A stretch of DNA of 64,000 nt from Paenibacillus sp. FSL W8-0426 (lineage in GTDB: Bacteria; Bacillota; Bacilli; Paenibacillales; Paenibacillaceae). Where the stretch lies: assembly GCF_037969725.1 (NCBI RefSeq), contig NZ_CP150203.1, positions 4,046,001-4,110,000 on the forward strand, given 5' to 3'. The notes under the pieces were generated by a model. The model was not told the DNA's origin. It worked only from the letters and a program-made list of their open reading frames with translations, and made no database searches. Numbering within the stretch: position 1 is the stretch's first letter; every line of letters begins with the position of its first letter. Made by a program: the position numbers and the translations under genes. Below are positions 17,874-32,972 of this stretch, piece by piece.

Positions 17874-18929
17874 TTAGCCAAAATAGCGATGGACAAGCGT
17901 GCGTGCTTCAGCAGTATCTTTGGTCCCGTGGACGAGGATCCGACCGTCTTGAAAAATAACCATCCGATGTTCCCCTAGGCTGAACGAGACCAGAAACGGA
18001 TTGTGTTCCACGACCCCTTCCCCAAGCTTACCCAAACGTTCAGCGGTCTGTTGGAGATCCAGCTTCAATGGGCGGGAAGGACGGATCTGCACCGTATCCC
18101 TGCCGCAGAGCACGTCCGTTTTTTCGAGATTCGAGGCGGATAAATACGGAAATGAAGCCGATGCGCTGCACGAAGGACAATCCGGCTTCTTCGCGCCATC
18201 CACGTTGATCGTTATGTACTCGTTCCGCCACAGGTCAAACGACAGCAGCTTGCGCCTTAAGGCGCCATGATTTCCGCTAAGAAGCTTCATGGCTTCTGCA
18301 GTCTGATTGGCCGTGACCATCTGCACGGCTTGCGGAATGATTCCAGAAGTATCGCAGGTATCCCCGCCCAACGGCACCTCTCCGAGCAAACAATTCAAAC
18401 AAGGGGTTTCCCCTGGCATAAAGGTGTAGGTAATCCCGTAGCTGCCTACGCACCCACCGTAAATCCATGGTTTGCGATGTTTTTGGCACATATCGTTGAT
18501 CAGCAGTCTTGTATCAAAGTTATCCGTTGCATCCATCACCAGATCGACATCCGCAATGAGTTCTTCCAATTCATCCGTCCGCACATCCATGACTTTTCCA
18601 ACGATGTCTACTGTGGAATTAATCTCTTTCAGACGCTTTACAGCAGCGATCGCTTTCGGCATGCGCTCCAATGCGTCCTTCTCTGTGTAGAGCTGCTGGC
18701 GCTGCAGGTTGCTCCACTCCACGTAATCGCGATCGGCGATCGTGATATGCCCGATTCCGGCACGTGCCAACGTCTCGGCGATTCCCGTTCCCAGCGCGCC
18801 TGCACCAATGATCAGTACACGGCTTCCTTTCAGCCGCTCCTGTCCGTTTTTGCCCAGCGGCGCGAATCGTTCCTGCCGTGAGTAACGGTTTTCTTGCTCT
18901 GGATGCTCGTTCGTGTTCGGGTTTGTCAT
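17874..18929 (-). CDS. thiF: Sulfur-carrier adenylyltransferase ThiF
   Basis: Activates the C-terminal glycine of ThiS with ATP, so that sulfur can be loaded for thiazole synthesis. The 351-residue E1-like fold shows [21 protein letters not shown] near residue 37, the ATP-contacting [13 protein letters not shown] near residue 65, and zinc cysteine pairs CLNC and CPSC. A C-terminal extension of about 90 residues resembles Bacillus ThiF/MoeB-like proteins. Its start overlaps the thiG stop by 4 nt (ATGA type), implying translational coupling. It could also serve molybdopterin synthesis, but the context assigns it to thiamine. Confidence 0.9.
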
Positions 18930-19693
18930 GACTGAACCATTCCTTCCGCAGGACTGCTCGCTGCTGCATAACGCTTGACGGGGATCATGCCTGCCTCGTA
19001 TGCCAATCTCCCTGCTTCAACGCCCATTCGCATGGCCTTAGCCATCTTAACCGGATCGCGTGAACCTGAAACAGCCGTATTAAGCAATACGCCATCTGCC
19101 CCCAGCTCCATCGCTTGGGCAGCATCTTTGGGAGAACGAAGGCCTGCATCCACAATGACCGGAACCGCAGCCTGTTCAATGATCAGCTCAAGATTGTACG
19201 GATTTATCAGCCCTTTGCCCGCACCAATCGGCGAGGCCCCGGGCATCACGGCGTGTACACCGAGCAATTGCAGACGTTTGGCCAAAATGACGTCATCCGA
19301 AATATACGGCAGCACCGTAAATCCTCTTTCAAGCAGCATCTCGCAAGCCCTGTACGTTTCGATCGGGTCGGGCAACAACGTTCGCCCATCGCCGATCACT
19401 TCTACCTTAATCATATCACAAAGTCCCGATGCCCGTGCCAATTCGGCGATGCGTACCGCTTCTTCGGCATTCGTCGCTCCAGCGGTATTCGGCAGCAACG
19501 TGAATCGACTCAGGTCCAACGTGTCGAGAAAATGCTTGCGTTCCCGCTGCTCCAAATTCAAGCGCCTTATAGCAAATGTCAGAACCTCTGTACCTGATGC
19601 CTCAACCGCCTGTCGTTGTACATCCAAGTCTTCGAATTTCCCTGTTCCCAGCAGCAATCTCGATTCAAAGGCATATTTTCCAATGTTTAACAT
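18926..19693 (-). CDS. thiG: Thiazole synthase ThiG
   Basis: A TIM-barrel enzyme that joins deoxyxylulose phosphate, dehydroglycine and ThiS-thiocarboxylate to give the thiazole phosphate. The Schiff-base lysine lies in [16 protein letters not shown] near residue 96. Phosphate-binding glycine motifs [11 protein letters not shown] and [20 protein letters not shown] are present. The length of 255 residues is normal. It sits 2 nt after thiS and overlaps thiF. Confidence 0.97.
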
Positions 19694-19695
19694 AC

Positions 19696-19899
19696 TTATC
19701 CGCCTCCCACAAAATGTACGATTTCGATTCGGTCTCCGTTTTTCAGCGGCGTCGTCTCATGAAGCTCTCGCGTTAAAATTTGCCGATTCAGTTCAACAAC
19801 GACGGTTTTCACCTGAAGATTGAAAGAGAGCAACAATTTGTCCACACGATTCAACTGGTCTTCAATCTCCATCGATTGTCCGTTGACGATAATATTCAA
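19696..19899 (-). CDS. thiS: Sulfur carrier protein ThiS
   Basis: A 67-residue ubiquitin-like sulfur carrier. It begins [14 protein letters not shown] and ends EIVHFVGGG, the glycine tail that is adenylated by ThiF and thiocarboxylated. The tail has three glycines where two are essential. It overlaps thiO upstream by 4 nt and abuts thiG, the usual order. Confidence 0.95.
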
Positions 19900-21116
19900 T
19901 GCATCATCCCCTTTCCGCTTAAGCGCTCCGGATTGAAAGCAGCAATCCCGAGTTCACCGGCCGATTTCCCCTCGATCAAATCCGCCAACACACTGCCTGT
20001 GATAGCGCTGAGCAAAATACCGTTCCGATAATGTCCGAAAGCGGCATACAATCCCGAATATTGTTCGCTTTCCCCCAAATACGGCAAACCATCCGGAGTC
20101 GATGGTCTCACGCCGGCCCAGGCTCGCTCGAATCGGGCGTGCGCAACGGCGGGAACCCATGCTGCCGCGGCGGAGATCAGTTTCTGGATTCCTCCAGGGG
20201 TCACATGCAAATCCGAAGCTCCCGCCAAGCTTGTTGCACCCAACCACACTTCTCCATTCGCTTTTGGAACGATATAAACATCTTCCGCATAAACGGTCCT
20301 GTCCGGTATATTTCCCCGTGCAGCGTCATGATGCGAAAACCGGACAGCAACCATTTCTCCCTTTACCGGCACGACAGGCATGTTCAACCCTACGCTTTCC
20401 ATCAACTCTACTCCTTGCAGCCCGGCCGCGACTATGACATTTTTACATGTCAACATGCCAATGGAGGTTTGAACCCCTTGTATGCGCCCTGCCCCGGTTT
20501 GCAGCGTTACATTCTGAATGCCTTCCATGATTCGAGCCCCGTATGCTTGAGCGGACTTGGCATAAGCTGTGACAAGGTTTAACGGCAGCACTTCGCTTTC
20601 AGCTTGCCTGTACAACCCGCCATACGTATCCCGGCTTAGCCAGGGTGCTTGACGCTGCAGTTCCTGCCGATCCCAATACGTGCATGCATTCGAATCTGTT
20701 TCATATGCGGCTGCATATAGTCCTGCCTTTTGTCCGCTTCGAAAAGGCGTAATGAACCCGGCCTGCCGCAAGCCAATGTCAATTCCGCTCATCGCTTGAA
20801 TATGCTCCCTCTGCCGGTGAACCCGTTCACGGCTGCGCCGGGCAAGCTCCGCCATGGCCGCATGATGAAAGTGCTCACTGTCGGCAGCCAGCATGCCGGC
20901 CGCCGCCGATGACGTCCCTCCACCCATTCGGGCTCGTTCCAGGAGCATTACTTCCTGCCCGCGGGCTGCCAATTCATAAGCAATGGAACAACCGATGACA
21001 CCCCCTCCGATCACGATCGTTTCGGCAGACATGTCCTTTCGCGAACGTGGATTCTCTTTTTTGTCGAGAATGTCGAACCCCGAACTACCGTCTAAGCTAA
21101 TGCGATCATCAAACAA
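19896..21116 (-). CDS. thiO: Glycine oxidase ThiO
   Basis: FAD enzyme that oxidises glycine to dehydroglycine for thiazole synthesis. The dinucleotide motif is TIVIGGGVIGCSIAYELAARG, followed by GGGTSSAAAGMLAA and the C-terminal GLYAAFGHYRNGILLSAITG. The start is uncertain. TTG 21116 lies 8 nt after AAGGAGG, whereas ATG 21134 overlaps the tenI stop (ATGA) but has no upstream ribosome site because AAGGAGG falls inside its codons. Either choice gives an N-terminal extension of about 28-34 residues before the usual FAD motif, longer than in B. subtilis ThiO. Confidence 0.92.
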   Translation of the reverse strand: MFDDRISLDGSSGFDILDKKENPRSRKDMSAETIVIGGGVIGCSIAYELAARGQEVMLLERARMGGGTSSAAAGMLAADSEHFHHAAMAELARRSRERVHRQREHIQAMSGIDIGLRQAGFITPFRSGQKAGLYAAAYETDSNACTYWDRQELQRQAPWLSRDTYGGLYRQAESEVLPLNLVTAYAKSAQAYGARIMEGIQNVTLQTGAGRIQGVQTSIGMLTCKNVIVAAGLQGVELMESVGLNMPVVPVKGEMVAVRFSHHDAARGNIPDRTVYAEDVYIVPKANGEVWLGATSLAGASDLHVTPGGIQKLISAAAAWVPAVAHARFERAWAGVRPSTPDGLPYLGESEQYSGLYAAFGHYRNGILLSAITGSVLADLIEGKSAGELGIAAFNPERLSGKGMMH

Positions 21117-21130
21117 CGATTGCCCCTCCT

Positions 21131-21817
21131 TCATCTTCGTTCAATGGCGTCATTCATGGGCCGTACACCGGACATAGCCTGTTTGAATGCAGCGGCTGCT
21201 TGCTCAGGTTTACTGTTCTCCCATATGGCGGACATGACCGCAATCCCGCTTGCCCCGGCTGCGTAAATCGCATCCACGGCATCAAGGCGAATTCCGCCGA
21301 TCGCAATGACGGGAATGCAAAGGGAGCTGCATATCGCTTTCAATGCAGGTATGCCTCTTGGCGCAGCGCCAATTTTGCTGTTGGTAGCAAAAACGTGCCC
21401 AAAAATAACATAATCTGCGCCTTGGCGCTCAGCGGATTTCGCCCCTTCCAAGGAATGCACGGAAACGCCCAGACGGATCGGTTCATGCTTGTTGTCCATC
21501 CGGATGGTTGTGCCATACTGTTTGAAATCCGATTCCCCCCTGTGCACGCCGCACAACTTAGGAACAGAAAAACCATCCATTCGATCAGGAATGCCATTAA
21601 CGACAATTTGCGAAGCCGGGATACCCGCTTCTTGCATTCGTTCGGCCCAATGCAATCTTTGGTTGATCGCAAGATGTTTTTCCCGAATATGAATGTAATC
21701 CACCCAAGGGGTCACCCGGATCGCCTTTTCAAGAAAAACATCAAGGTCCCCCGTTCCGTTTGAAATGACATGGAGCTCCAATGATGAAGGTACTGATTGA
21801 GTTTGCGAAGCAACCAT
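21131..21817 (-). CDS. tenI: Thiazole tautomerase TenI (ThiE-like)
   Basis: A 228-residue TIM barrel of the ThiE/TenI family. Wording such as VDYIHIREKHLA, GVSVHSLEGAKSAERQGADY, VIFGHVFAT and PVIAIGGI matches TenI (aromatising tautomerase of the thiazole) better than ThiE, as recalled from B. subtilis. Its place as first gene of tenI-thiO-thiS-thiG-thiF agrees. ATG 21817 follows AGGTGA by 8 nt; the longer open frame upstream runs through the terminator and is not coding. Confidence 0.88.
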   Translation of the reverse strand: MVASQTQSVPSSLELHVISNGTGDLDVFLEKAIRVTPWVDYIHIREKHLAINQRLHWAERMQEAGIPASQIVVNGIPDRMDGFSVPKLCGVHRGESDFKQYGTTIRMDNKHEPIRLGVSVHSLEGAKSAERQGADYVIFGHVFATNSKIGAAPRGIPALKAICSSLCIPVIAIGGIRLDAVDAIYAAGASGIAVMSAIWENSKPEQAAAAFKQAMSGVRPMNDAIERR

Positions 21818-21851
21818 AACTCGGTTCACCTGCCTTTCGCTGAAAGAACAC

Positions 21852-21877
21852 AAAAAACCACTCCCGCAGGGGAGTGG
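21852..21877 (-). terminator. Riboswitch-controlled terminator of the thi operon
   Basis: A perfect 8-bp stem CCACTCCC/GGGAGTGG (21858-21865 with 21870-21877) plus six U residues on the minus strand. It lies 35 nt upstream of the tenI start and downstream of the TPP aptamer, as expected for transcriptional attenuation. Confidence 0.92.
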
Positions 21878-22026
21878 CGACTTATTCGTATCTTTCGTGC
21901 AATGCAAGGCAAATGCGAAACCAATGGGCATTATTCTCACGCGTTTATGCATGGAACGAGCATTGCCGATAATCGCATTGCAATCCAAGCGACGGCTGAA
22001 ATACAGCCTTCCTTGTCATGACGAAA

Positions 22027-22281: not shown

Positions 22282-23268
22282 CTAGCGATTGATATAACAA
22301 TTTTGCTCAAAATAGCCTCGAGCCGCTGCCTCCTGGGCATCCGTAAAAACTTCCTCCGGCCTGTATCCGTTCGAGCATGTGGCCGGATAATAATATTTGA
22401 TGCCGCTGTCAGGATCCACACCGCCGATCACGGCCGCCCTCTTAACAAGCCGGCCGCCTCCGATGGCAAAGTTGTTGATTTTTCGGCCTCCGCTCGGAAT
22501 ACCCTGAATGAAAGCAATGATCCCTGTGTCATTTATAGAGTTGTACCAGTCTTCCTGGGAGATGAGCGGCAGAGTAAACGTGTATGAGATGCCATTTCTT
22601 CTGGCAAATTCGTTGTGACGATTGATGACCTCGGCCAAATCCTCCTGAACGGCACTGACAATCCGGCTTCTGCGCACATGTTCAAAATGTTGATCATCTC
22701 TCAGCAACGGGATCCGTGTCGACGCGATGAGTTCGTTCCGAAAGCCTTCAAGCCACATTTGCTTTTCGGCATCATAGGCGTAGACATAACTATCCAACGT
22801 GAAATTGATGCTGTTTCCGTCTTCGTCTGCATAGGTATAGGGTTTCTTTGGGCTCCACACGTGACGAAAAGAGTTTTCGGACTCCCCCATCATTTCCGTC
22901 TCATTGGCATACATGTAGTAACCGTCGTAGTCCAGAACAACGATAGCCGGGATATAATCGAACAAGGAGCGAATCGCTGGCGGATCGTCCTGAATCCCCA
23001 AATTAAGAGCCATCGTTTGCGTAAACGTCTCCAGCGCCAAATCTTTATCAGCGTTCACAAACTTTGATGAACCGTAGCCCGCTTCTCCACTTTGCTTTTC
23101 GTTCTGGTGCATGACCATGCCAGCGTCCATGACGGCAGTCCTCAGCGCTGTCTCGTATCTATTGCTGAGGATCTGGGCCTCTTGGAGTTCCCGACTGCTC
23201 TGCGACACGATCCAAAAAAACGGAAAAAAGACAAGCACAAAAACGATGGACAGCTCAGTAATCTTCAT
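22282..23268 (-). CDS. Membrane-anchored protein of Tad-like operon (last gene)
   Basis: A 328-residue protein not matched to a named family. One N-terminal hydrophobic segment (about residues 3-21, ELSIVFVLVFFPFFWIV) is followed by a predicted extracytoplasmic region with an initial helical stretch (ELQEAQILSNRYETALRTAV). This is the layout of TadE/TadG-like minor pilins. There is no signal peptidase site. Two cysteines lie near the C-terminus (ATCSNGY and FEQNCY) and could pair. Its start overlaps the upstream gene by 14 nt. Tenth and last gene of the operon; no clear terminator was found before 22175. Confidence 0.7.
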   Translation of the reverse strand: MKITELSIVFVLVFFPFFWIVSQSSRELQEAQILSNRYETALRTAVMDAGMVMHQNEKQSGEAGYGSSKFVNADKDLALETFTQTMALNLGIQDDPPAIRSLFDYIPAIVVLDYDGYYMYANETEMMGESENSFRHVWSPKKPYTYADEDGNSINFTLDSYVYAYDAEKQMWLEGFRNELIASTRIPLLRDDQHFEHVRRSRIVSAVQEDLAEVINRHNEFARRNGISYTFTLPLISQEDWYNSINDTGIIAFIQGIPSGGRKINNFAIGGGRLVKRAAVIGGVDPDSGIKYYYPATCSNGYRPEEVFTDAQEAAARGYFEQNCYINR

Positions 23269-23806
23269 TCAGCACCATCCCTCCATACGTGGTAAACACG
23301 GCGGGAGATTGGATTGTCCCATTTAGCCATTCGCGGATAAGCATTGCGGGGGTTCGATTCGTATTTCTGACGGACACGGTAAAAAAATCCCCTACTGTAA
23401 ACGTGTATCTTCGAGCAGGATCCTCCGCGGTTTCTAAACCGTCGGTCGGAAAAAGCTTCTCTTTGATTTGGCTTGAATAATATCCATCCAAAACCGTCTC
23501 GTACGTCCCCGTAAAAGTCGCAGGATTTTGGGGATCGATGTAATTCGGCACATATTTTTTGTGCAAATGCTCCATTGAAATGTCGTAGACATTGCCCGTG
23601 CGCGCCAATTGTTCTTCGAATTCGGCAAACATCGCTGGAGAAATGTAACCTTTGGTGCGAGCGGAATCAACAAAACGCGTGACGGTCTGGTAAACGGTCA
23701 TCCGGGAAATCTCATCCTGCCGATCTGCCGTTTCGGCAGCCGGATATACATATAGCAGAAGTACCGCCAACAAGACGGCAAGCAGTTTGGATGCGGCATT
23801 AATCAA
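23255..23806 (-). CDS. Pilin-like membrane protein of Tad-like operon
   Basis: A 183-residue protein of unknown family. A hydrophobic N-terminal segment (about residues 6-24, SKLLAVLLAVLLLYVYPA) runs into a long amphipathic helix (TADRQDEISRMTVYQTVTRF), then a globular domain with YTFTVGDFFTVSVRNT. The start is TTG at 23806 after AGGAGG, overlapping the preceding gene. The layout suits a minor pilin or anchored assembly factor. Confidence 0.7.
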   Translation of the reverse strand: MINAASKLLAVLLAVLLLYVYPAAETADRQDEISRMTVYQTVTRFVDSARTKGYISPAMFAEFEEQLARTGNVYDISMEHLHKKYVPNYIDPQNPATFTGTYETVLDGYYSSQIKEKLFPTDGLETAEDPARRYTFTVGDFFTVSVRNTNRTPAMLIREWLNGTIQSPAVFTTYGGMVLNEDY

Positions 23807-24200
23807 TATCTCCGGCCTCCTTCCAGAACGAGATTTTATTCAGCTGCCCGGACTCGTCTCTGATAAACTCAGGCCTGTAGAGACCCATAAGCTGGACCGG
23901 AACGGTCGCCCCCCTGTCTGCCAAAGGGTCTATACGATAGGCGCTTCCGTCCACCTCCACCTGAATGGTTGTCCCCGTCATCTGTCTGACCGTATGCAGC
24001 ACTTCCGCTCCGCTATAACGTTCCGGCTCAGAAATTCTCAGCGTTGCTGTCAACTTGCCCTCCATAGCTTCCGTTCCCTGGATGGTCTGATCAATGGTCT
24101 GTGCCAAGTGGCGAACATGATGCTGTCCGTGCATACAAGCTGCAACAAACATAACTACCGCCGTGCAAAACAACATAAGCTGCTGCGTGTTTCGGGACAT
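23799..24200 (-). CDS. Small membrane-anchored protein of Tad-like operon
   Basis: About 133 residues. The N-terminal hydrophobic segment (QQLMLFCTAVVMFVAACMHG) contains a cysteine, but this does not form a convincing lipobox because no LxxC context precedes a small residue. A helical stretch follows (HHVRHLAQTIDQTIQ), then a small beta-rich domain. No named family was recognised. ATG 24200 has AGGAG about 11 nt upstream; a GTG one codon earlier is possible. It overlaps the next gene by 2 nt. Confidence 0.65.
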   Translation of the reverse strand: MSRNTQQLMLFCTAVVMFVAACMHGQHHVRHLAQTIDQTIQGTEAMEGKLTATLRISEPERYSGAEVLHTVRQMTGTTIQVEVDGSAYRIDPLADRGATVPVQLMGLYRPEFIRDESGQLNKISFWKEAGDID

Positions 24201-24216
24201 CACCCTCCAGCTCCTG

Positions 24217-24702
24217 TCACGATTGTGTGAAAATAAGCCCTCTCACCACATTGGACTTATCTTTCACGATGATCGCTTTGAATTTCCCGCTCGGATTGAC
24301 GTATTGGTTGTCTTTCTCGTTCATCGTTTGATTAATGCTCCCTACCTTGTTATCAGGCGCGATCACCGAGCCATAATCTGCGTTATTGACGTCACGTGAA
24401 ATGTTCAATTCATTGCCGTACCATTGTCCCGCTGCGTTTTTGCCAGTAATGATCTGAATGCCGAACTGGTCCTTGTCCGCATACTTTCGCAGCGCATTGG
24501 TCACCTGGGAGCCGCTGATCGTTGTTCCGTCATAAACGGTGAATGCAGCCTGAGACAATTCGGTCTGAATGTCCGCGAAGTTGTTTTGTGCCGTCTTGGT
24601 GGCCTCCTGGGCCGATATAAACAGCAGCACCACGATCGTAATCAAGGCAATCGTCAAAAAAATCCCGGCAGCAACCTTTAGCGCACTGGATGCATTGTTC
24701 AT
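24217..24702 (-). CDS. Pilin-like protein of Tad-like operon
   Basis: A 161-residue protein starting MNNASSALKVAAGIFLTIAL, with one long hydrophobic helix (residues 8-30) continuing as an amphipathic helix (TKTAQNNFADIQTELSQAAF). This is the architecture of type IV filament subunits. It lacks the charged prepilin peptidase site and the Glu5 of type IV pilins, so it is not a classical prepilin. ATG 24702 lies 8 nt after GGAGG; the TTG two codons earlier is less likely. Its position right after the TadB/C-type protein makes it the best candidate major subunit. Confidence 0.7.
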   Translation of the reverse strand: MNNASSALKVAAGIFLTIALITIVVLLFISAQEATKTAQNNFADIQTELSQAAFTVYDGTTISGSQVTNALRKYADKDQFGIQIITGKNAAGQWYGNELNISRDVNNADYGSVIAPDNKVGSINQTMNEKDNQYVNPSGKFKAIIVKDKSNVVRGLIFTQS

Positions 24703-24733
24703 TTTCAATTCCTCCCAAAATAAGTTGTATGAT

Positions 24734-26803
24734 TTATAATTGTTGGATTTGTTCGTAATACATGTTCATCTGCAGGAAGCTCATGCCAACAAGCGGGACG
24801 ACCAAGTAGAGAAAGACCAGTGCATACATAGGCGCAAACCCGATCATTTTTCCCCATGCAGCCTTGGCATCGACCATTTTGGCGTACTCCTGCTTGCGTT
24901 GTTCAAAATAAAAAGACATCATGCTATCCAGATCATCAAATGCTTCCTGGATCGAAATTTTGCCCAGCGCAAGCTGCAGCTTGTCCACAAGGCGTTGAAA
25001 CTCCGGGAGCCGCGCATCCGCCTTTAAATGTTCAAGGGCATCCTCCGGCCCATGTTCGAAATGAAGCAGGCACTTTTGCAAAGGGCGTTTGAAAATGACG
25101 GCAAACCGGTTAAGCCACTCCAGAATCTCTTCCACCGACATCCGCTCCATGTCGCGCAAAATTGAGATGACCGTCTGGAACTGGTAAATTTCATGCAGCA
25201 TGTCCATGCCGCGCATTTTGCGCTGAAACAGCATCAGCCATATGGGCAAATAATACCCGGACGTGCCGATCAGAAAAGCAATGAGCAGTTCCCACCACTG
25301 CAAATATTGACGTTGAAGCTTCTCCCATTTTTGCGTGATCCGGGCAACCGTTTCATTCTGCACCTCGTCCTTAAGCTTCCGGGAACTAACGCGCTCTAGC
25401 GCTTGGACGATTTCGTCATGAGTCGCATTCCCTGCTTTGGAGACCTGCTGCAGCACAGCCCGGTCCAGATCCGCCGTATCCTGGGCTTGTTTCAATTCAT
25501 CTGCGGACATGGCTCCGAACATTCGGTCATCCCGGACAGGCGCATATAAAATATGGTTCCGTTCCACCTGGTGAAGCGCAGCAATGCAACAAAGAGAGAA
25601 TAGAAAGCATCCTACAAAGAGGACAAACCTTCGAATAGCCAACCATTCATACTTGAGCTCCGAGCTGCTCTCTCTCATCAAACGTACGGATTGGCCGTAC
25701 TTGATGCTGCCGGGTTTGGCTGCAAGCAGAAATGAGCATTTTCGAATAAAAGGCTGCTTGTAAAGGATTCGCTCCCATACGGTATTGCTGCGCCCTGCCC
25801 GAAAACGCGTTTCATCGTACTGTTGCAGGCGCTGCAGCAGTAAATAGGCAGCAATAATCACCACATAGATGGATATCTTGGTTACGAACCCCAGCTTGCT
25901 TCCGTAAAACTCATCCATCGAAGGAAAGCTGCTTCTGGCCCAACGCTCGATCGGCGCCGTAAACAGTACCGGGGCAAGCGCAATGATATTGAGCCCTTTC
26001 AACAGGTAATCCAGCTTGTCCCTGCGCAAAATTTCCAAGTGGATTTCCTGCGTGAGGTTGCCGAGCCCCTTCAGATAGATGGAGCCGTGCGCCCTGTCCT
26101 TATCCCCGAATTCCATGACCAAGTAGGACATGCCCGCAAATCCTTTCAAAAAACGGTTAGGAGCAACCTCATAATACCTTTCCAGCGCCTCGTTCGGATC
26201 CGGTGAAGTCAATGCCTCGTAGATGAGCATGACTTGCTGCGCGGCTTCCCCTTTACCTGTTTCCGCTGCCTCGTATAGCGCTTCTTCGATCATGCCGTGC
26301 TGGTGATAACGATGACGCACTTCGGCAAACACATCCAGCATCTGCATCAACAAACGTTTCTCCAAGCGATTTAGCCACATATCCAAGACCAGGCTGTTCA
26401 ACACAACCGCGCACAGAACAACCAATAACAAAAAGCTCCATCCAGGTTGAACCATCAACAGAACGATACCGACTAAACTGAAGCTTCCTGCGACGATGAG
26501 CACGATCCCCATCGTCGTTTTTCTCAGCGCCATTTCATCTCCGACATGGCGGAACGAAATCCTCTTTTTGACCTGCAGAACGTATGCAGACCATAACGGC
26601 AGTTTCATGCTCCAACGATAGCTCTGCAATAAGAACGATCTCCAACCGGCAAGCCGCCGGCTTCCTGGTATGGAAAATACGGTTTGCCGTCTGGTTGCTG
26701 CAACACCTCCTTTATGGCGGAGAATCGCTAGAATCAGCATGACAACCGCCAGACCTACAGCACAGCATGCAAGCAGCAATAACAGGATCGATTTAAACGG
26801 CAT
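24734..26803 (-). CDS. Tandem T2SS-F-domain membrane protein (TadB/TadC-like fusion)
   Basis: A 689-residue inner-membrane platform protein with two halves of the same plan. The first half has N-terminal transmembrane segments, a cytoplasmic helical domain (RLLMQMLDVFAEVRHRYHQ; about residues 150-290) and closing transmembrane segments to about residue 345. The second half repeats this from about residue 420: two segments, a helical domain (LHEIYQFQTVISILRDMERM; about residues 540-650), then a final segment (FAPMYALVFLYLVVPLVG). In Tad systems TadB and TadC are separate proteins of about 300 residues each; here one chain appears to replace both. Its start overlaps the ATPase gene by 11 nt. 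Confidence 0.85.
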   Translation of the reverse strand: MPFKSILLLLLACCAVGLAVVMLILAILRHKGGVAATRRQTVFSIPGSRRLAGWRSFLLQSYRWSMKLPLWSAYVLQVKKRISFRHVGDEMALRKTTMGIVLIVAGSFSLVGIVLLMVQPGWSFLLLVVLCAVVLNSLVLDMWLNRLEKRLLMQMLDVFAEVRHRYHQHGMIEEALYEAAETGKGEAAQQVMLIYEALTSPDPNEALERYYEVAPNRFLKGFAGMSYLVMEFGDKDRAHGSIYLKGLGNLTQEIHLEILRRDKLDYLLKGLNIIALAPVLFTAPIERWARSSFPSMDEFYGSKLGFVTKISIYVVIIAAYLLLQRLQQYDETRFRAGRSNTVWERILYKQPFIRKCSFLLAAKPGSIKYGQSVRLMRESSSELKYEWLAIRRFVLFVGCFLFSLCCIAALHQVERNHILYAPVRDDRMFGAMSADELKQAQDTADLDRAVLQQVSKAGNATHDEIVQALERVSSRKLKDEVQNETVARITQKWEKLQRQYLQWWELLIAFLIGTSGYYLPIWLMLFQRKMRGMDMLHEIYQFQTVISILRDMERMSVEEILEWLNRFAVIFKRPLQKCLLHFEHGPEDALEHLKADARLPEFQRLVDKLQLALGKISIQEAFDDLDSMMSFYFEQRKQEYAKMVDAKAAWGKMIGFAPMYALVFLYLVVPLVGMSFLQMNMYYEQIQQL

Positions 26804-28619
26804 GGGTATCCCCCCAATATTTGATCAGAAACCGCTCGAACCGGTCTGCATCCTGCATCGTCATTTGATCCCGCATATCGGACATGCTTTCAGCAGTTAA
26901 AGGCGCAGCCGCAACATAACTTCCGTCCCGATACTCGACCACGTTGCGGAACGAAAACCCTACCCGCTCTTCAACGCTCTCGATCTGCCCGGAACGCGGC
27001 AGGCATTCGGTGATTCGCTCGATGTATCTGCGTCCCTCCGCATCTTTTTTCATGTGCACGTCGAAATTGATCACGCTGACGACCTGCTCTTCGGCAATAT
27101 GTTCATGTTGAAACATCCCTGTTTTGAGCAGTGAATTGCGCAGGGAAAACACAAGATCCCTGAACGTTTTGGCATGGTGAGTGAACAGCGTGAACAGACT
27201 GGCGACTTGAGACATTTGAATCATCCAGGCAGCTACTTCGTCACTCGCTACTTCGCCCAAAATATTCACGGTTCCGTCCGTCTTTTTCTGTAAATCGAGA
27301 CCTTCCTGACCGGAAATTTGCTCGGTTTCGCGAAAGCTCAATATGTTGCGCCGGCTATAAATACGTCTCAGCTGCAGCTCGAAGGCCATCTCTTGCACAC
27401 GCAAGGTATACGATGGATAAATGTGTTTCACCATGGCCATAAGGAGCGTTGTTTTCCCCGAACCCTGAGCTCCGGTCACAGCGGTAATCCGGCTTCCTTT
27501 CATCAAATAACACAACAGCATGATGGGCAGCTCCGCATTTTCGCCAGTGACAAGCTGCTCCAGCGAAGCATTCGGAATATCGAACTTCCGTACGAAAAAG
27601 GCCCACGATTCCGCAAACGGAGGACGAACGACAACAACGCGCGAACCGTCTTTCATCTCGTTCACTTTATATCCGTTCGCCTCGGACAACTGTCCAGGGT
27701 AGTTGTATTTGTAAATGTTCTGGCATACCCTTTTCAGTTCACGGACGCTGCCAAAGGACAGAAACGACAGGTGGATCGATCTCCCCTTGTAAAAAATCCA
27801 AACGCTCTCCGCTGCGCTTAAAGGCTCTTTCGCTTCATCCACAAACGATGTATCCTGTATCAGATCATTCCACGATGCAGGTAACCGACTTCCTTGATCC
27901 TGCGTATCCAATATGCCGCTGACTCCGCCGCTCACGCCATCAATGCGTTGGTCACGAATCTCGTCAACAATCGAAAACCCTTTGTAGTGTTGATAGATTC
28001 GCTGCACGACGATATCTCTTTTTTCATGAAATTCTAGCCTGCGGTATTCGCAATCGAAAACGTAATGGATGTCTTCCTCCGAAATGTAGTAGCTCCCCCC
28101 GTTCTCCCCTTCTGCCTCCATTCGCAATTTCCCAAGATCATACGTTTCGATCAGCCGGGAAAGAGCATCCACCCCGAATTGCTGTTTGTACAAAAAAAAC
28201 ACGATTTCAAAGCGATCCTGAACCGTTAACAGCTCCTGATCTTCAAATGGAATGACTTCATCAATGGTGGTCTTGTTCAATCCAAGAGTCCGCGTGAGCA
28301 GATCGCCGATGAGTCTTTTAACATAAAGTTTGTCGCTCAGGCTGCCGGAGACACAGCCTTTCAGCGCTTTCCGCATCTCGGCACGCTGGTTGATTCTCCG
28401 CTGATACTCCTCTTCATGCAAGCCGGCGTCGGCCAACTGGCTGTGACTTAACTCATGCAGCGAATGTTTTACTTTCTCCGTCAAACCTTCGATGGTTAGC
28501 GATTCGTGATTATGATCTTTCCGTTCTTGTTGTTCACGATCAAGCTTCCTGTATTTCGCCCCAAAAAATAGGATGATTCCAAGCAGCATTACGCCGATTA
28601 ATGTACCATTCACCCCCAT
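26793..28619 (-). CDS. CpaF/TadA-type secretion ATPase
   Basis: A 608-residue ATPase of the T2SS/T4P/T4SS (VirB11-like) superfamily that would drive subunit assembly. The Walker A motif TGAQGSGKTTLL is intact near residue 385. VNILGEVASDEVAAWM fits the Walker B region, and FTHHAKTFRDLV the conserved His-box area. Unusually for the family it begins with a transmembrane segment (TLIGVMLLGIILFFG, about residues 6-20), which would tether the motor. A large N-terminal domain of about 300 residues precedes the core. Start ATG 28619 lies 10 nt after AAAGGGGAG, 5 nt past the upstream gene. Confidence 0.88.
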   Translation of the reverse strand: MGVNGTLIGVMLLGIILFFGAKYRKLDREQQERKDHNHESLTIEGLTEKVKHSLHELSHSQLADAGLHEEEYQRRINQRAEMRKALKGCVSGSLSDKLYVKRLIGDLLTRTLGLNKTTIDEVIPFEDQELLTVQDRFEIVFFLYKQQFGVDALSRLIETYDLGKLRMEAEGENGGSYYISEEDIHYVFDCEYRRLEFHEKRDIVVQRIYQHYKGFSIVDEIRDQRIDGVSGGVSGILDTQDQGSRLPASWNDLIQDTSFVDEAKEPLSAAESVWIFYKGRSIHLSFLSFGSVRELKRVCQNIYKYNYPGQLSEANGYKVNEMKDGSRVVVVRPPFAESWAFFVRKFDIPNASLEQLVTGENAELPIMLLCYLMKGSRITAVTGAQGSGKTTLLMAMVKHIYPSYTLRVQEMAFELQLRRIYSRRNILSFRETEQISGQEGLDLQKKTDGTVNILGEVASDEVAAWMIQMSQVASLFTLFTHHAKTFRDLVFSLRNSLLKTGMFQHEHIAEEQVVSVINFDVHMKKDAEGRRYIERITECLPRSGQIESVEERVGFSFRNVVEYRDGSYVAAAPLTAESMSDMRDQMTMQDADRFERFLIKYWGDTHAV

Positions 28620-28624
28620 GAAGG

Positions 28625-29455
28625 TCAGGCTCCCCTTTCAAGCCTTTTCAAGATCGTGCGCATTCCTGCGCCGTCCATGATCAGGCGAGCGAATTCAGCC
28701 ATATGCTTGCTGAAACTGTCTTTCCCTTTTCCTTCATTGCCACCCCACCCGTGCAATTGCAGAAAGCTCCCCACATCGCGCCGGTTGGCTGCATCAAGGT
28801 ACCCCGTTGTGTACGGGATCGCCGACATCGTCCCCTTATATCGGAAACGACGACGAATGTTCGCTAGCGTTGCTCGGGCATGCGGGTCATACTTGCCAAT
28901 TACCAAATGCATTTTTCGGTCTTTCATACAAAAAGGCATTTCTCCTTCAAAAAACTGTTCAAGCTCCCTCATGTTCTGCGTCAAATGAACGACCACGAAC
29001 TCAGCGCGCTGCAGAAGAAGACTTGCATCTCTCCCTTCCTGACCCGCCTCTACGATGACCAGATCATAGTATTCGTTCGCGGCATTCAGCAGCGAGTTCA
29101 GCGGTTCAGCCTGCCCTTTATGCAATCGCTCCATATTGTTCATGGAACCGGTCAGCAAGTCCAAGCGGTCTTTGATCAGCGGTTTGGCATGATCCTTGAC
29201 GTTATGTTTGGTCAATGCGCCGCTGGCATGCAGCCGCTCGATGGCATCCCATCCCCCTTCGTCAAAACGGTGAAGCGAGTCTGCTTCATACTCTTGAATC
29301 GGAGGAAGCAACGCCTCCACTCCGCTGCCCGCCTGTCCTGAATTCACCAGTAAAATTCTTACTCTGTACTGCAAACCCATAGCATACGCGCCAATCAATG
29401 AGCTGGAGGTGCAGCCGCTTCCGGCAAACGGACTCCAAAACGCTACCGTACTCAT
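28625..29455 (-). CDS. MinD/CpaE-like protein with degenerate P-loop
   Basis: A 276-residue ParA/MinD-fold protein. The N-terminus MSTVAFWSPFAGSGCTSSSL aligns with the start of CpaE/MinD proteins (SPKGGVGKTT-type), but the P-loop lysine is replaced by Cys. The later segments YYDLVIVEAGQEG and FVVVHLTQN fit the Walker B and following strands. It may bind nucleotide poorly or not at all. In Tad systems CpaE/TadZ proteins position the machine at the pole. It shares 4 nt with the preceding gene. Confidence 0.8.
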   Translation of the reverse strand: MSTVAFWSPFAGSGCTSSSLIGAYAMGLQYRVRILLVNSGQAGSGVEALLPPIQEYEADSLHRFDEGGWDAIERLHASGALTKHNVKDHAKPLIKDRLDLLTGSMNNMERLHKGQAEPLNSLLNAANEYYDLVIVEAGQEGRDASLLLQRAEFVVVHLTQNMRELEQFFEGEMPFCMKDRKMHLVIGKYDPHARATLANIRRRFRYKGTMSAIPYTTGYLDAANRRDVGSFLQLHGWGGNEGKGKDSFSKHMAEFARLIMDGAGMRTILKRLERGA

Positions 29456-30165
29456 GCCCTCATCCTTTCTGCTTCTTTCATCGCCTTGCGGCTCTGAACC
29501 GGTTCCCAGCCTGTCAGCTGCTCGATCAGGCGGCGAAGCGATTTTTTGTAGTTTCGAGAAAGTGGGCCCAGCCGTATTCGGCGATGATGCTCATTTTCCA
29601 ATTTGACTGCCGCAATCAGTTCATCCCAGGGCAGCACCAGAGATTCTGCAGTCCACTCAAACGGGCCTCTATCAAGATATGTCCATAAATATTGAACATC
29701 CAGTTTGCAATCCACCGCATTGATCAAAATCCGTTGAAACGAAAGATTGCCCGGCAAGTCCTGTTCCTCCAGCAAATGCTCCAGCCAGCCCTTGCTACGC
29801 TCGAGATTATAACGCTCGTAATCGCAGACCCAGAGACGGATCTCGGCTTGCAGCCATAAATCTCTGGAAGCGAAATGGGAGCTTTCCACGTCATAAACGA
29901 TGTAATCATAAGCGTCAATCCCTTCGCCGCTTGCTTCGAGATGGCCCTCAACCGCTGCGGACGTAACGAATTGGCAAGCGACGTCGAATCCTTCAAACTC
30001 AGTAATGCGAAGCGAGTGATTGCCTTCACCCACGCTATACATGTATTTCTGTTGAAGCGTACCATCTACAAGCAAAACCCTTTTACCGGACGCCGCCAAA
30101 ATTTTGCACAAGTACAACATCAGATCCGTTTTCTCGCACAATCCCGCAAAAATCCATGCATGCAA
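29452..30165 (-). CDS. Second MinD/CpaE-like protein, strongly degenerate
   Basis: A 237-residue protein with the outline of a ParA/MinD fold. MHAWIFAGLCEKTDLMLYLC takes the P-loop position but has lost the glycines. GKRVLLVDGTLQQKY and DYIVYDVESS resemble the strand-2 and Walker B segments. Enzymatic ATPase activity looks unlikely. ATG 30165 follows AGGAGGGG by about 11 nt. The stop overlaps the next MinD-like gene by 4 nt, so the two proteins are probably made in equal amounts and may pair. Confidence 0.7.
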   Translation of the reverse strand: MHAWIFAGLCEKTDLMLYLCKILAASGKRVLLVDGTLQQKYMYSVGEGNHSLRITEFEGFDVACQFVTSAAVEGHLEASGEGIDAYDYIVYDVESSHFASRDLWLQAEIRLWVCDYERYNLERSKGWLEHLLEEQDLPGNLSFQRILINAVDCKLDVQYLWTYLDRGPFEWTAESLVLPWDELIAAVKLENEHHRRIRLGPLSRNYKKSLRRLIEQLTGWEPVQSRKAMKEAERMRA

Positions 30166-30236
30166 TTGAACCCCTCCTAAACAATCGCGTTGTTATAAGA
30201 ATCATTAATAGAATACATCGCTTGTTTTTCTGTGTC

Positions 30237-31232
30237 TCATTGCCCGCCAGTCAGCACCCGTTGTTGTTGTTCCTCAGCACTGCCGCTGTCCGCCGGTTGG
30301 TCAAACACGCTTCCTGGATCAACGTTCGCGGACTGATCCGTTCGTTCGCCAGCGCCTGGACGGTTATTGTACGAAACAGAGGATTGCGCCACATCCTGTT
30401 CAACGCTCCGCGAAGGCGCGGCAGCAGAGATTGCAAGCGAGCTTTCCAATGAGCTGCGCACTTGGCGCACCAGTTCCTGCTCGGCCCGCCTGACGATATT
30501 CGGATCGCTCTCCAGCAATTTCAACACCTCCTGATTCGCTGGATACGTCGGTATGGCCGCAGTTTGAAACTGGGGTTCCACATAGGTAAGGGCGTAGATT
30601 GAAGCTTTATGTAAGTAGGCATCCACGATCGCACTGGATAGCGACAAGATCTCTTCTTCCGTCATCGTAATCCATAATGTAGAGGCATTGAGGCGCTCCA
30701 CCTTCTTTTTCGACAATAGAATGTAGTCCTGGCCTGTCGGAAACTGGATCCGAACATCAATGATATCACCCTGGGCCAACGACGAAGGCAGCAGAACAAC
30801 TTGAAGCTCCCGGTTCCTTAAATCCGGAGGAGCAGGCGTATCTTCGTAAACCATTTCCGTCGTAATGGCTGTTCCTTTTTTAAGCTCGATCTTGGCTCGC
30901 TGATCTTCGGGTTGTTTGCTGCTGGACCACAAATTGCGCGGTGCCTGTGCGTCGGGAACGGCAAAAAGCTTAATGTCTTCCGCGAGAATCGGCTCCCCCG
31001 CTTCAATATCCCGCACGGTCACCCATGCCTGCGCCCCCGACTCCCATTGCTGGAGAAGCTCGGCTTCTTTTTGCTCGAAGGCTGCTGTAAACTTCGCTTC
31101 GATCTCCGCTTTGGTGTCGTTTAGCGTAATGAGGCTGTAAATCACGTATCCCCCAAACAGCAGGCCTGCTGCACCCGCACCAATCAAGCCAGCATAAATC
31201 CGTTGTCGGCTTTGCTTTCGTAATTTGGACAA
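30237..31232 (-). CDS. CpaB/RcpC-like SAF-domain protein
   Basis: A 331-residue protein with an N-terminal transmembrane segment (about residues 12-34, YAGLIGAGAAGLLFGGYVIY), a coiled stretch (TKAEIEAKFTAAFEQKEAEL), then a SAF domain of the CpaB/FlgA type (WVTVRDIEAGEPILAEDIKL, KKGTAITTEMVYED). The C-terminal about 60 residues are polar and likely disordered. In Tad systems CpaB is an assembly protein outside the cytoplasmic membrane. The start is TTG 31232, 8 nt after AGGAG. Second gene of the operon. Confidence 0.85.
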   Translation of the reverse strand: MSKLRKQSRQRIYAGLIGAGAAGLLFGGYVIYSLITLNDTKAEIEAKFTAAFEQKEAELLQQWESGAQAWVTVRDIEAGEPILAEDIKLFAVPDAQAPRNLWSSSKQPEDQRAKIELKKGTAITTEMVYEDTPAPPDLRNRELQVVLLPSSLAQGDIIDVRIQFPTGQDYILLSKKKVERLNASTLWITMTEEEILSLSSAIVDAYLHKASIYALTYVEPQFQTAAIPTYPANQEVLKLLESDPNIVRRAEQELVRQVRSSLESSLAISAAAPSRSVEQDVAQSSVSYNNRPGAGERTDQSANVDPGSVFDQPADSGSAEEQQQRVLTGGQ

Positions 31233-31350
31233 AAAAGGCTCTCCTTTCCCTTAATTGCATGTTCTGCTTTGGAATTGATCGTCATTTCTTGATGATCTCA
31301 GCTTGCTTCACCACACTTCATCCTGTAAGCCTTACCATCATATACACGGC

Positions 31351-32820
31351 TCATTTCTTTCTGGTAAACCACGAACGCTTCGCCGGCGTATGCCCTGTCA
31401 GATGATGCAATAATTGCCCAAGCACCTTATCCATGTGCGGATCCTTGTCAAAAGGATCTGTTTGCAACGGAAGGCTGTATACGCGTTCCGTATCCAGTGA
31501 TTTGCGAATTCGCTGCACTGCATCCGAAGCGGCCAATGGCAGGCAATAGGTCCACTTGTCCCGCGGGAAACGATGATGCGAGCGAATCAAAGCTCCAATC
31601 TCGGCTTGCCTCCACTCCGCGCCTGAACCTACAACGATGGGCAGGTCGGCTCTTAGAAATTCCTCCAGCCGCTGCTGATCCTGACCACTGCCCAAATCCA
31701 TGACGATAAACTGGTAGCTGCCCCCAAGCAAAGACAAAATATCTGCCCTTCCGGATTGCTTCCAGTAGTGGACACCGTTGACCACAAAATTCCGGCCTGC
31801 AGCAGGCGGCTTGCCGCCATGGGCAATTTGCTGGATACGGCTAAACGACTGCGAACGCGGAGACATTTCAATAATGGCTACCTTGCCGTTGTTCCGCTCC
31901 AAATAATGGCTTATCGCTATGGATGTATGCGTTACGCCTACACCGGCGGCCGTTCCCATCAGAGCGATGACACGGGTACCGCCATTCATCGTTACCGATA
32001 CATTTCCTGAAAGCGGAGTACTCCCGGGTCTTCGCAAAATTTCTGCACGCACTTCGCCGGCCGATTGAAAGCGTTCCTGGGGTTCCTGGCGCAGCAACCT
32101 TCGCACAACAGGAATGTACATGCGCGGAACGTCGCCTCGTACACAAGCCTCTACCCCATGAATCCACTCCGTATAAGCACCGCATGTCAAGAGATACAGC
32201 ATTAGTGCTCCAAGTCCGTATAGGTCTGAACGGGCATCCGTTTGTCCCGATCCGTATTGTTCCGGAGCGGCAAACCCGGCAGTTCCCAGCTTGATCGTAT
32301 CCTGATTTTGAAGCGTCTTATAGCTTCGAGCAATGCCGAAATCAATCAACCTCACTTCCTGCTCCGGCGTGATCATGATGTTGGACGGCTTCATATCCCG
32401 GTAAATAATGGGCGGATCGAGATGATGCAAATATTCCAACACATCGAGCAACTGAAGCACAAATTCGGTCACTTGCTCCATCGGGATTTTACCGCCGCAT
32501 TGTTTGAAATATTCAGCCAGCGTCATGCCTTCGATTCGCTCCATGACCAGGTAAGCATACCCTTGTTCATCCGGGGCAAAGAAGTCGACAATCTGCGGAA
32601 GCCTCGGATGTCGAAGGGAAATGAGCAGGGCCGCCTCCGTGTCCATGGTGCTCTCATATGGCAGGCTCATCACGCTTTCCTTAACGGCCCACGTTTTGCC
32701 GGGAAGCTTCAAATCCTCGGCTTCGTACACACGGCTCATGCCGCCTGTGCCTAGAACCGAAACGATGCGGTATCTGTCGCCAAGCAGTCTTCCTGGCACC
32801 AATCCGGCCGAATGTTTCAC
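31351..32820 (-). CDS. Ser/Thr protein kinase fused to MinD/CpaE-like domain
   Basis: A 489-residue cytoplasmic protein and first gene of the Tad-like operon. Residues about 15-270 form a Hanks-type kinase with every key motif: glycine loop GTGGMSRVY (24-32), catalytic Lys47 (WAVKE), YRDMKPSN with Asp142, metal Asp160 in IDFGIAR, and GTAGFAAPEQY. From about residue 295 a ParA/MinD-like domain follows (RVIALMGTAAGVGVTHTSIA, then YQFIVMDLGSGQD). Its P-loop Lys is replaced by Val. There is no transmembrane segment or PASTA repeat, unlike PknB/PrkC. GTG 32820 lies 8 nt after AAAGGAGG. The fusion suggests kinase control of the machine's positioning or assembly. Confidence 0.9.
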   Translation of the reverse strand: MKHSAGLVPGRLLGDRYRIVSVLGTGGMSRVYEAEDLKLPGKTWAVKESVMSLPYESTMDTEAALLISLRHPRLPQIVDFFAPDEQGYAYLVMERIEGMTLAEYFKQCGGKIPMEQVTEFVLQLLDVLEYLHHLDPPIIYRDMKPSNIMITPEQEVRLIDFGIARSYKTLQNQDTIKLGTAGFAAPEQYGSGQTDARSDLYGLGALMLYLLTCGAYTEWIHGVEACVRGDVPRMYIPVVRRLLRQEPQERFQSAGEVRAEILRRPGSTPLSGNVSVTMNGGTRVIALMGTAAGVGVTHTSIAISHYLERNNGKVAIIEMSPRSQSFSRIQQIAHGGKPPAAGRNFVVNGVHYWKQSGRADILSLLGGSYQFIVMDLGSGQDQQRLEEFLRADLPIVVGSGAEWRQAEIGALIRSHHRFPRDKWTYCLPLAASDAVQRIRKSLDTERVYSLPLQTDPFDKDPHMDKVLGQLLHHLTGHTPAKRSWFTRKK

Positions 32821-32848
32821 TGTCAATCCCTCCTTTCTCGCACGACAA

Positions 32849-32917
32849 AAAGGGAAAGCACTCCAAAGCCGCACTACCGAAACATCGGTAGCTCTGACTC
32901 TGGGATGCTTTCCCTTT
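32849..32917 (-). promoter_or_regulatory. Long terminator-like hairpin in the leader of the Tad-like operon
   Basis: A 12-bp perfect base stem AAAGGGAAAGCA/TGCTTTCCCTTT (32849-32860 with 32906-32917), an internal 6-bp stem and a 7-bp CTACCGA/TCGGTAG tip with a 4-nt loop, followed by U residues on the minus strand. It begins about 19 nt after the predicted transcription start and ends about 26 nt before the kinase start, leaving no room for a promoter downstream. It therefore looks like an attenuator or riboregulator rather than just the terminator of the gene at 33065. No known riboswitch consensus was recognised. Confidence 0.65.
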
Positions 32918-32942
32918 AAACGTCATGGTTAATATTGGTATC

Positions 32943-32972
32943 ATTATAGTACAGGCCGGTGTTGGTTGTAAA
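32943..32972 (-). promoter_or_regulatory. Promoter of the Tad-like operon
   Basis: TTTACA (32967-32972) and a perfect TATAAT (32943-32948) with an 18-nt spacer on the minus strand. The predicted start of transcription is near 32936, just before the leader hairpin. Confidence 0.75.

Follow-up and report, generated by a model that had tools for sequence, protein, structure and literature searches.

A run of ten genes in Paenibacillus sp. FSL W8-0426, named A to J here in the order in which they are read, encodes a machine that by its sequence is a relative of Tad pilus-building machines and whose presumed subunits carry no visible cleavage leader. The genes lie on the minus strand of a 64,000-nucleotide stretch of contig NZ_CP150203.1 (assembly GCF_037969725.1, positions 4,046,001 to 4,110,000), referred to as the window; positions are those of the window unless genome coordinates are given. 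The likeliest explanation, which we hold with somewhat better than even confidence, is a Tad-derived type IV filament or pseudopilus of monoderms that would be built without a peptidase and whose job would be the wall transit of a protein of family PF18964 (DUF5704) and its partners, or of type VII secretion substrates.

The ten open reading frames (ORFs) occupy 22282-32874 and follow one another consecutively with short gaps or overlaps (Table 1). The intergenic gaps measure 118 bp, 71 bp and otherwise at most 31 bp, and the pairs C/D, E/F, H/I and I/J overlap. Domains were called with Pfam and NCBIfam at their cut-offs, complemented by profile-profile comparison, for which the match probability is given in percent. 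The initial annotation, made from the letters of the window, had described ten leftward, mostly touching or overlapping genes, and this was confirmed. The arrangement is not due to chance, because other genera keep the same genes in the same order. The proposed kinase-MinD fusion (A), SAF protein (B) and anchored CpaF-type ATPase (E) were likewise recovered, as were two further MinD-like proteins (C and D), which fall below the Pfam cut-offs yet match CpaE by profile-profile comparison. No Flp, prepilin peptidase, secretin or TadD was called by Pfam or NCBIfam among the ten proteins, as had been stated. Four small N-terminally anchored proteins had been listed as well: each of G to J does begin with a hydrophobic segment, but J is not small.

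Table 1. Genes of the operon and a promoter-like site upstream of it (positions in the window; percentages are profile-profile match probabilities).
Feature	Position	Strand	Length	Assignment	Basis
A	31351..32874	-	507 aa	Ser/Thr kinase and degenerate CpaE/MinD module	PF00069 118.7 bits; C-terminal part to CpaE 97.0%
B	30237..31232	-	331 aa	anchored SAF protein, CpaB/RcpC-like	SAF 26.1 bits, cut-off 21
C	29452..30165	-	237 aa	degenerate MinD/CpaE-like	CpaE 96.9%; without P-loop Lys motif
D	28625..29455	-	276 aa	degenerate MinD/CpaE-like	CpaE 97.9%; TIGR03815 9e-4, below cut-off
E	26793..28619	-	608 aa	membrane-anchored CpaF-family ATPase	CpaF 100%
F	24734..26803	-	689 aa	platform protein, N-terminal half TadB-like	N-terminal half to TadB 96.4%
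G	24217..24702	-	161 aa	leaderless pilin-like protein	predicted model; no peptidase site
H	23799..24203	-	134 aa	paralogue of G	G to H 98.4%; ATG at 24200
I	23255..23806	-	183 aa	N-terminally anchored, minor-pilin-like by layout only	conserved gene position
J	22282..23268	-	328 aa	N-terminal helix 3-52, then large domain	predicted model
Promoter-like site upstream of A	32943..32972	-		TTTACA, 18 nt, TATAAT	11/12 consensus matches

For the motor E, Pfam and NCBIfam returned weak P-loop or T2SSE matches (22.3 bits to Pfam T2SSE, under the cut-off of 24.9); its profile-profile alignment to classical CpaF spans 344 columns. Among PDB sequences, three matched E at E ≤0.01, each of them a CpaF (best 1.3e-10). 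Among 110 E proteins, not dereplicated and scored with crude patterns, the Walker A pattern is kept in 106, GE in 109 and an HH pair in all, and an N-terminal hydrophobic segment is present in 110/110 as against 0/17 classical CpaF. A tree was built from 36 E sequences, 17 classical CpaF and 26 other T2SSE hits of the order, some of them identical proteins. The 36 E sequences clustered together (FastTree support 0.914), their clade sitting outside classical CpaF at the end of a long branch. The order's long T2SSE proteins (548-577 aa), which from their length and place in the tree are probably PilB/ComGA-like, grouped elsewhere. These comparisons place E in the CpaF family, as an ATPase that carries a membrane anchor and forms a separate clade. 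The platform protein F had been described as a double T2SS-F protein; its N-terminal half proved TadB-like, whereas the C-terminal half gave no usable match. In an excerpt of PMC6668835, archaeal platforms are aligned the other way round, TadC with the N-terminal and TadB with the C-terminal domain. Given its TadB-like N-terminal half, a fusion in tadB-tadC order would fit F better than an unsplit archaeal platform.

The presumed subunits G to J differ from classical Tad pilins at the processing site. After redundancy filtering, the prepilin-site pattern was found in 1/86 G, 1/69 H, 2/79 I and 0/77 J proteins (4/311 in total), as against 44/47 classical Tad pilins (Flp 15/15, TadE-like 16/16 and 13/16); the pattern is crude ([GA]xxxxE followed by a hydrophobic stretch), and a few classical hits lie beside the expected place. 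Of the non-redundant G and H set (155 proteins), 153 have no Flp-type G|xxxxE site. The median start of the most hydrophobic window is residue 11 in G, 9 in H, 7 in I and 3 in J. For G, the ATG at 24702 is a likelier start than a TTG six bases earlier. Structure prediction bore out a pilin-like layout, with an opening helix of about 50 residues, in the AlphaFold2 models of G (48 rows; single helix 2-55 and small alpha/beta head; pLDDT 82.5, pTM 0.62) and J (56 rows; pLDDT 82.2, pTM 0.70), but neither model had a convincing PDB match; the layout of both is pilin-like, and a pilin fold is at most putative. In profile comparison, G to J did not match the two TadE-like groups of the order, and I matched neither these nor Flp, G or H. 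Other loci hold G-family genes in one to six neighbouring copies. Public records name G 'ABC transporter permease' and J 'F0F1-type ATP synthase', names at odds with the sequences of the two proteins.

A search of the whole genome gave a single match to the prepilin peptidase family PF01478, outside the operon in a separate Tad locus (L032, G000:C1:1476774-1487581), the nearest comparison to the operon within this genome. Beside this 173-aa peptidase, which an FHA-like protein follows, the locus encodes a CpaE-like protein, a CpaF of 491 aa, a TadB of 256 aa, a TadC of 310 aa, a 62-aa Flp and TadE-like proteins, the labels other than CpaF and peptidase being read from the sequences. The genome has two T2SSE matches, one in L032 and the other E itself. 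The earlier view that the subunits escape the usual peptidase is supported as far as prepilin sites are lacking by the crude pattern; the lack of processing itself is conjectural. It had also been said that a separate complete Tad locus might make the set a partial relic; such a locus exists, but the set is conserved and is not a relic.

Conservation of the operon is broad. A strong relative of E (E-value ≤2.7e-116, identity ≥44%) occurs in 36/36 genomes of the genus and in 9/23 genomes of other families in the order. At 1e-100 the E profile found 106/197 family genomes from 15/19 genera. Among 398 genomes drawn from the phylum, with the best three candidates per genome scored, E was found in five by the profile at 1e-40, the same five that the single sequence found at 1e-25. 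A scan of named genomes confirmed at least 571 stretches, the best 80 of which all carry Bacillota titles, including 22 Clostridia-type or unplaced Bacillota and one Tumebacillus. Of the initial proposal, a Tad-related machine of the type IV filament kind is supported, with only Bacillota among the best 80 named loci listed. Profiles of all ten proteins showed that the order A-B-C-D-E-F-G-H-I-J is kept in the relatives' loci, single genes being absent in some; it is shared by Paenibacillaceae, Clostridia and, without A, Tumebacillus. After dereplication of 109 loci to 53, the core B, D, E, F, G, I and J was present in 49/53 and all ten families in 32/53.

Ten genomes of the genus carry a second operon (flanking genes were read in seven). 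In one genome (G014), the main copy of E is split and the second copy is whole. The two parts (L041, ~3.0904-3.0916 Mb, and L059, ~3.1454-3.1461 Mb, on G014:C1) lie ~54 kb apart, and a 17-base stretch shared near both ends was read as a sign of an inserted element. The ten genes are a real, conserved machine and not a relic, because they are conserved, keep intact ATPase motifs and are present twice in ten genomes of the genus.

The MinD-like modules are degenerate. A lacks the Lys of the motif at the P-loop position, and a canonical GK[TS] P-loop was seen in 1/71 rows of A, 0/71 of D and 4/71 of C, as against 16/17 classical CpaE; relaxing the pattern added one row each of A and D, both with GRS. 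The four C rows with the canonical motif come from a second, ParA-like ORF at another place in the locus. A canonical ParA-like ORF lies a few kb upstream of B in L094, L097, L106 and L115. Loss of the Lys in A, C and D is no proof of lost ATP binding, because TadZ, according to an excerpt of PMC6668835, has an atypical Walker A and still binds ATP. The match of B to TIGR03177 (pilus_cpaB) was 5.8e-6, under the cut-off. Assembly under Ser/Thr-kinase control, which the initial annotation had suggested, was not supported as a general rule: kinase motifs are present in 20/36 representative A proteins, and 17/53 representative loci, some of them with short flanks, have no A longer than 350 residues. 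Kinase control is a local option. In some paralogous operons (L054, L058, L103, L118), GGDEF or degenerate GGDEF-like proteins adjoin A.

A phmmer survey of the flanks found a large DUF5704 protein, whose usual place is after J, preceded by an SLH or Cu_amine_oxidN1 protein; from the export signal read at its start, it is apparently Sec-exported. Its gene lies within 29/111 loci (not dereplicated) and 22/53 dereplicated loci. Across 59 genomes of the order, DUF5704 occurred in 43/45 with the operon vs 1/14 without it (Fisher p 3.5e-10, kinship ignored), the one operon-less case being a 117-aa frame that covers 44 of 185 positions; outside the genus the counts were 7/9 vs 1/14 (Fisher p 0.001, kinship ignored). 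The ten two-operon genomes of the genus averaged 4.6 DUF5704 matches vs 1.2 in the other 26, counted as matches and not genes, with one stretch of G023 counted as two pieces.

Type VII secretion genes recur beside the operon. Reviews divide type VII systems into subtypes. EssC-like genes adjoin the operon in 11/111 loci (6/53 dereplicated), and TIGR03928 (EssC) scored above its cut-off at three of three loci tested. EssC follows J in one clade; EssC and YukD precede A in L051/L200; EssC, a YukD-like gene (below cut-off) and WXG100 precede B in a metagenome-assembled genome (MAG) of Peptococcaceae (L127); and in two Vallitaleaceae loci an EssC-like gene stands on the opposite strand beside an A-family gene. 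On an IQ-TREE phylogeny built from 54 E proteins, five changes are required to explain the EssC label; measured against the DUF5704-only rows, the starred branches impose a minimum of four, gains not being distinguishable from losses. EssC is thus found beside the operon on at least four separate branches of the tree. YukD occurred in 8/59 genomes, and in seven of these a YukD gene lies within ~5-13 kb of an E gene on the same contig. Pfam and NCBIfam called no type VII gene among the ten operon genes, and no YukD was found in the window's genome; EssC and WXG100 elsewhere in that genome were not searched for.

One such arrangement is found in G022, where J is followed by EssC, WXG100, VWA, YukD, a kinase, one protein without an assigned family, two WXG100 and a 1624-aa RHS/pre-toxin protein, and then by a small protein, SLH, DUF5704 and a protein whose start matches that of the RHS/pre-toxin protein. 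Behind this type VII gene set (L199, L220; G022:C1:5.650-5.689 Mb), the RHS/pre-toxin protein and others that share its N-terminus alternate with SLH and DUF5704 pairs; the family scan covered the first of these proteins (1624 aa). In G048 and G053 (L217, L218), type VII genes (EssC-like, YukD) lie beside a different, shorter CpaF-type set, a second pairing of Tad-type and type VII genes. In G031 (L219) a comparable CpaF set includes a CpaB-like protein, and no type VII gene was seen there.

These observations suggest the following mechanism. The anchored ATPase E would turn the platform F, which would add pilin-like subunits, namely G, H and probably also I and J, directly from the membrane; because the N-termini of these subunits already resemble mature pilins, no prepilin peptidase would be needed. 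The CpaB-like B and the Lys-less MinD-like modules of A, C and D would place and gate the machine, with A contributing a kinase in this lineage and having other N-terminal parts, or being missing, elsewhere. The filament may hold, or push through the wall, the exported DUF5704 protein, often with its SLH or Cu_amine_oxidN1 partner, and in some lineages the machine could also work for type VII secretion and the toxins of that system. The sequences themselves show the homology of E, of the TadB-like half of F and of A, C and D, together with the kept gene order, the missing peptidase sites, and co-occurrence and adjacency. Filament assembly, the lack of processing, the role of DUF5704 and wall crossing we infer from the anatomy of the operon and from its neighbours. 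As a whole, the initial interpretation of the operon was partly supported.

Several points weigh against a peptidase-independent filament with a DUF5704 cargo. We know of no filament or phenotype for the operon. By profile comparison the C-terminal half of F reaches at most 6.8% to TadB or TadC, and I and J match no pilin profile; the models of G and J had no PDB match at E ≤0.001 and no convincing fold among the PDB rows listed. A prepilin peptidase is present in 59/59 genomes of the order, so that G to J could be processed by a shared enzyme, and the five of 27 genomes without one are MAGs of unstated completeness. As to DUF5704, the Fisher and rank tests ignore kinship, the operon carriers G038 and G046 lack the protein, and none lies nearby in 31/53 dereplicated loci. 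The only copy in the window's genome (1119 aa) stands with an SLH protein at ~5.605-5.610 Mb, far outside the window.

More tentatively, the filament might be part of a hybrid export machine of monoderms, pairing type VII secretion with a type IV filament motor whose subunits are leaderless. Membrane passage of the substrates, RHS toxins among them, would fall to EssC, and the filament of G and H, together with DUF5704 and SLH proteins at the surface, would then carry them through the thick wall; in lineages that lack EssC the same machine would serve Sec-exported DUF5704 and SLH proteins and would be the monoderm equivalent of type II secretion. To our knowledge, the passage of type VII and Sec-exported monoderm proteins through the thick wall is largely open.

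The main rival, which we consider doubtful, dispenses with a filament: E and F would drive a fixed channel, built from G to J in the membrane or wall, as an envelope translocation motor for DUF5704 and its partners or, where EssC takes part, for substrates of type VII secretion. The EssC, YukD and WXG100 genes that adjoin the operon in several branches, the adjacency of DUF5704 and an M23 peptidase after J in L068, L073 and their kin would all suit such a motor, as would the lack of a classical pilin match for I and J. It is harder to reconcile with E and the N-terminal half of F, which belong to filament motor families, and with G, which occurs in one to six copies and has a long pilin-like helix in its model. 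An ordinary Tad-type pilus whose unusual pilins borrow the peptidase of the separate Tad locus is still less probable. The enzyme is at hand in every genome of the order searched, and an excerpt of PMC6668835 describes sharing between systems, and such borrowing has been suggested for MSH pili; yet G to J lack the Gly/Glu+5 site, E stands outside the classical CpaF clade with a membrane anchor, and the platform is encoded by a single gene where Tad has two. A decaying or dispensable copy of a Tad locus, to which the complete locus elsewhere, the lost P-loop Lys of the MinD modules and the E gene split by ~54 kb in one relative might point, is made very improbable by the conservation of E in 36/36 genomes of the genus, of gene order across classes and of the ATPase motifs.

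Upstream of A, the promoter-like site (Table 1) is of a kind not enriched in the region (8 seen vs a shuffle mean of 11.4). Downstream of the operon follow thiamine-type genes (window 17874-21988), read from their sequences as thiF-, thiG-, thiS-, thiO- and tenI-like; a tenI-like match was also present in 11/31 relative loci.

The operon suggests a so far unexplained route by which thick-walled bacteria may move things through the wall. A leaderless Tad-related machine with a DUF5704 partner and a recurrent EssC linkage would make wall passage and the need for a prepilin peptidase, which an excerpt of PMC10191384 lists as a core component of type IV filaments, directly testable in soil bacteria, and it offers a first functional lead for DUF5704 and for the proteins now named as a permease (G) and an ATP synthase (J).

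Compared with known systems, the operon shares with the Tad/Flp pilus (type IVc pilus, T4cP) the CpaF-family ATPase, the TadB-like platform half, CpaE-like and SAF proteins, and small N-terminally anchored subunits. It differs in that no Flp, TadE/F or TadV was found in it. The Tad pilus has its own peptidase TadV, whereas the only PF01478 match of this genome lies in the other Tad locus; it has tadB and tadC, whereas the operon has a single platform gene of 689 aa of which only the N-terminal half is TadB-like. The ATPase of the operon is membrane-anchored at its N-terminus and forms its own clade, the subunits appear leaderless, and the TadZ/CpaE-like proteins are three degenerate MinD modules (A, C and D, 97-98% to CpaE) with the P-loop Lys lost. 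Long two-part platform proteins like F occur in archaeal type IV pili (Epd-like and others; excerpt of PMC6668835); compared through the literature and not through archaeal sequences, the TadB-like half of F is at the opposite end from that in the published archaeal alignment. With the competence pilus (ComG) and the type II secretion system (T2SS) the operon shares the principle of motor, platform and pilin, but E does not group with the long T2SSE proteins in the tree. The type VII system of Firmicutes (T7SSb) meets it in the neighbourhood: EssC, YukD and WXG100 genes adjoin the operons of several relatives, and none is part of the operon in the window.

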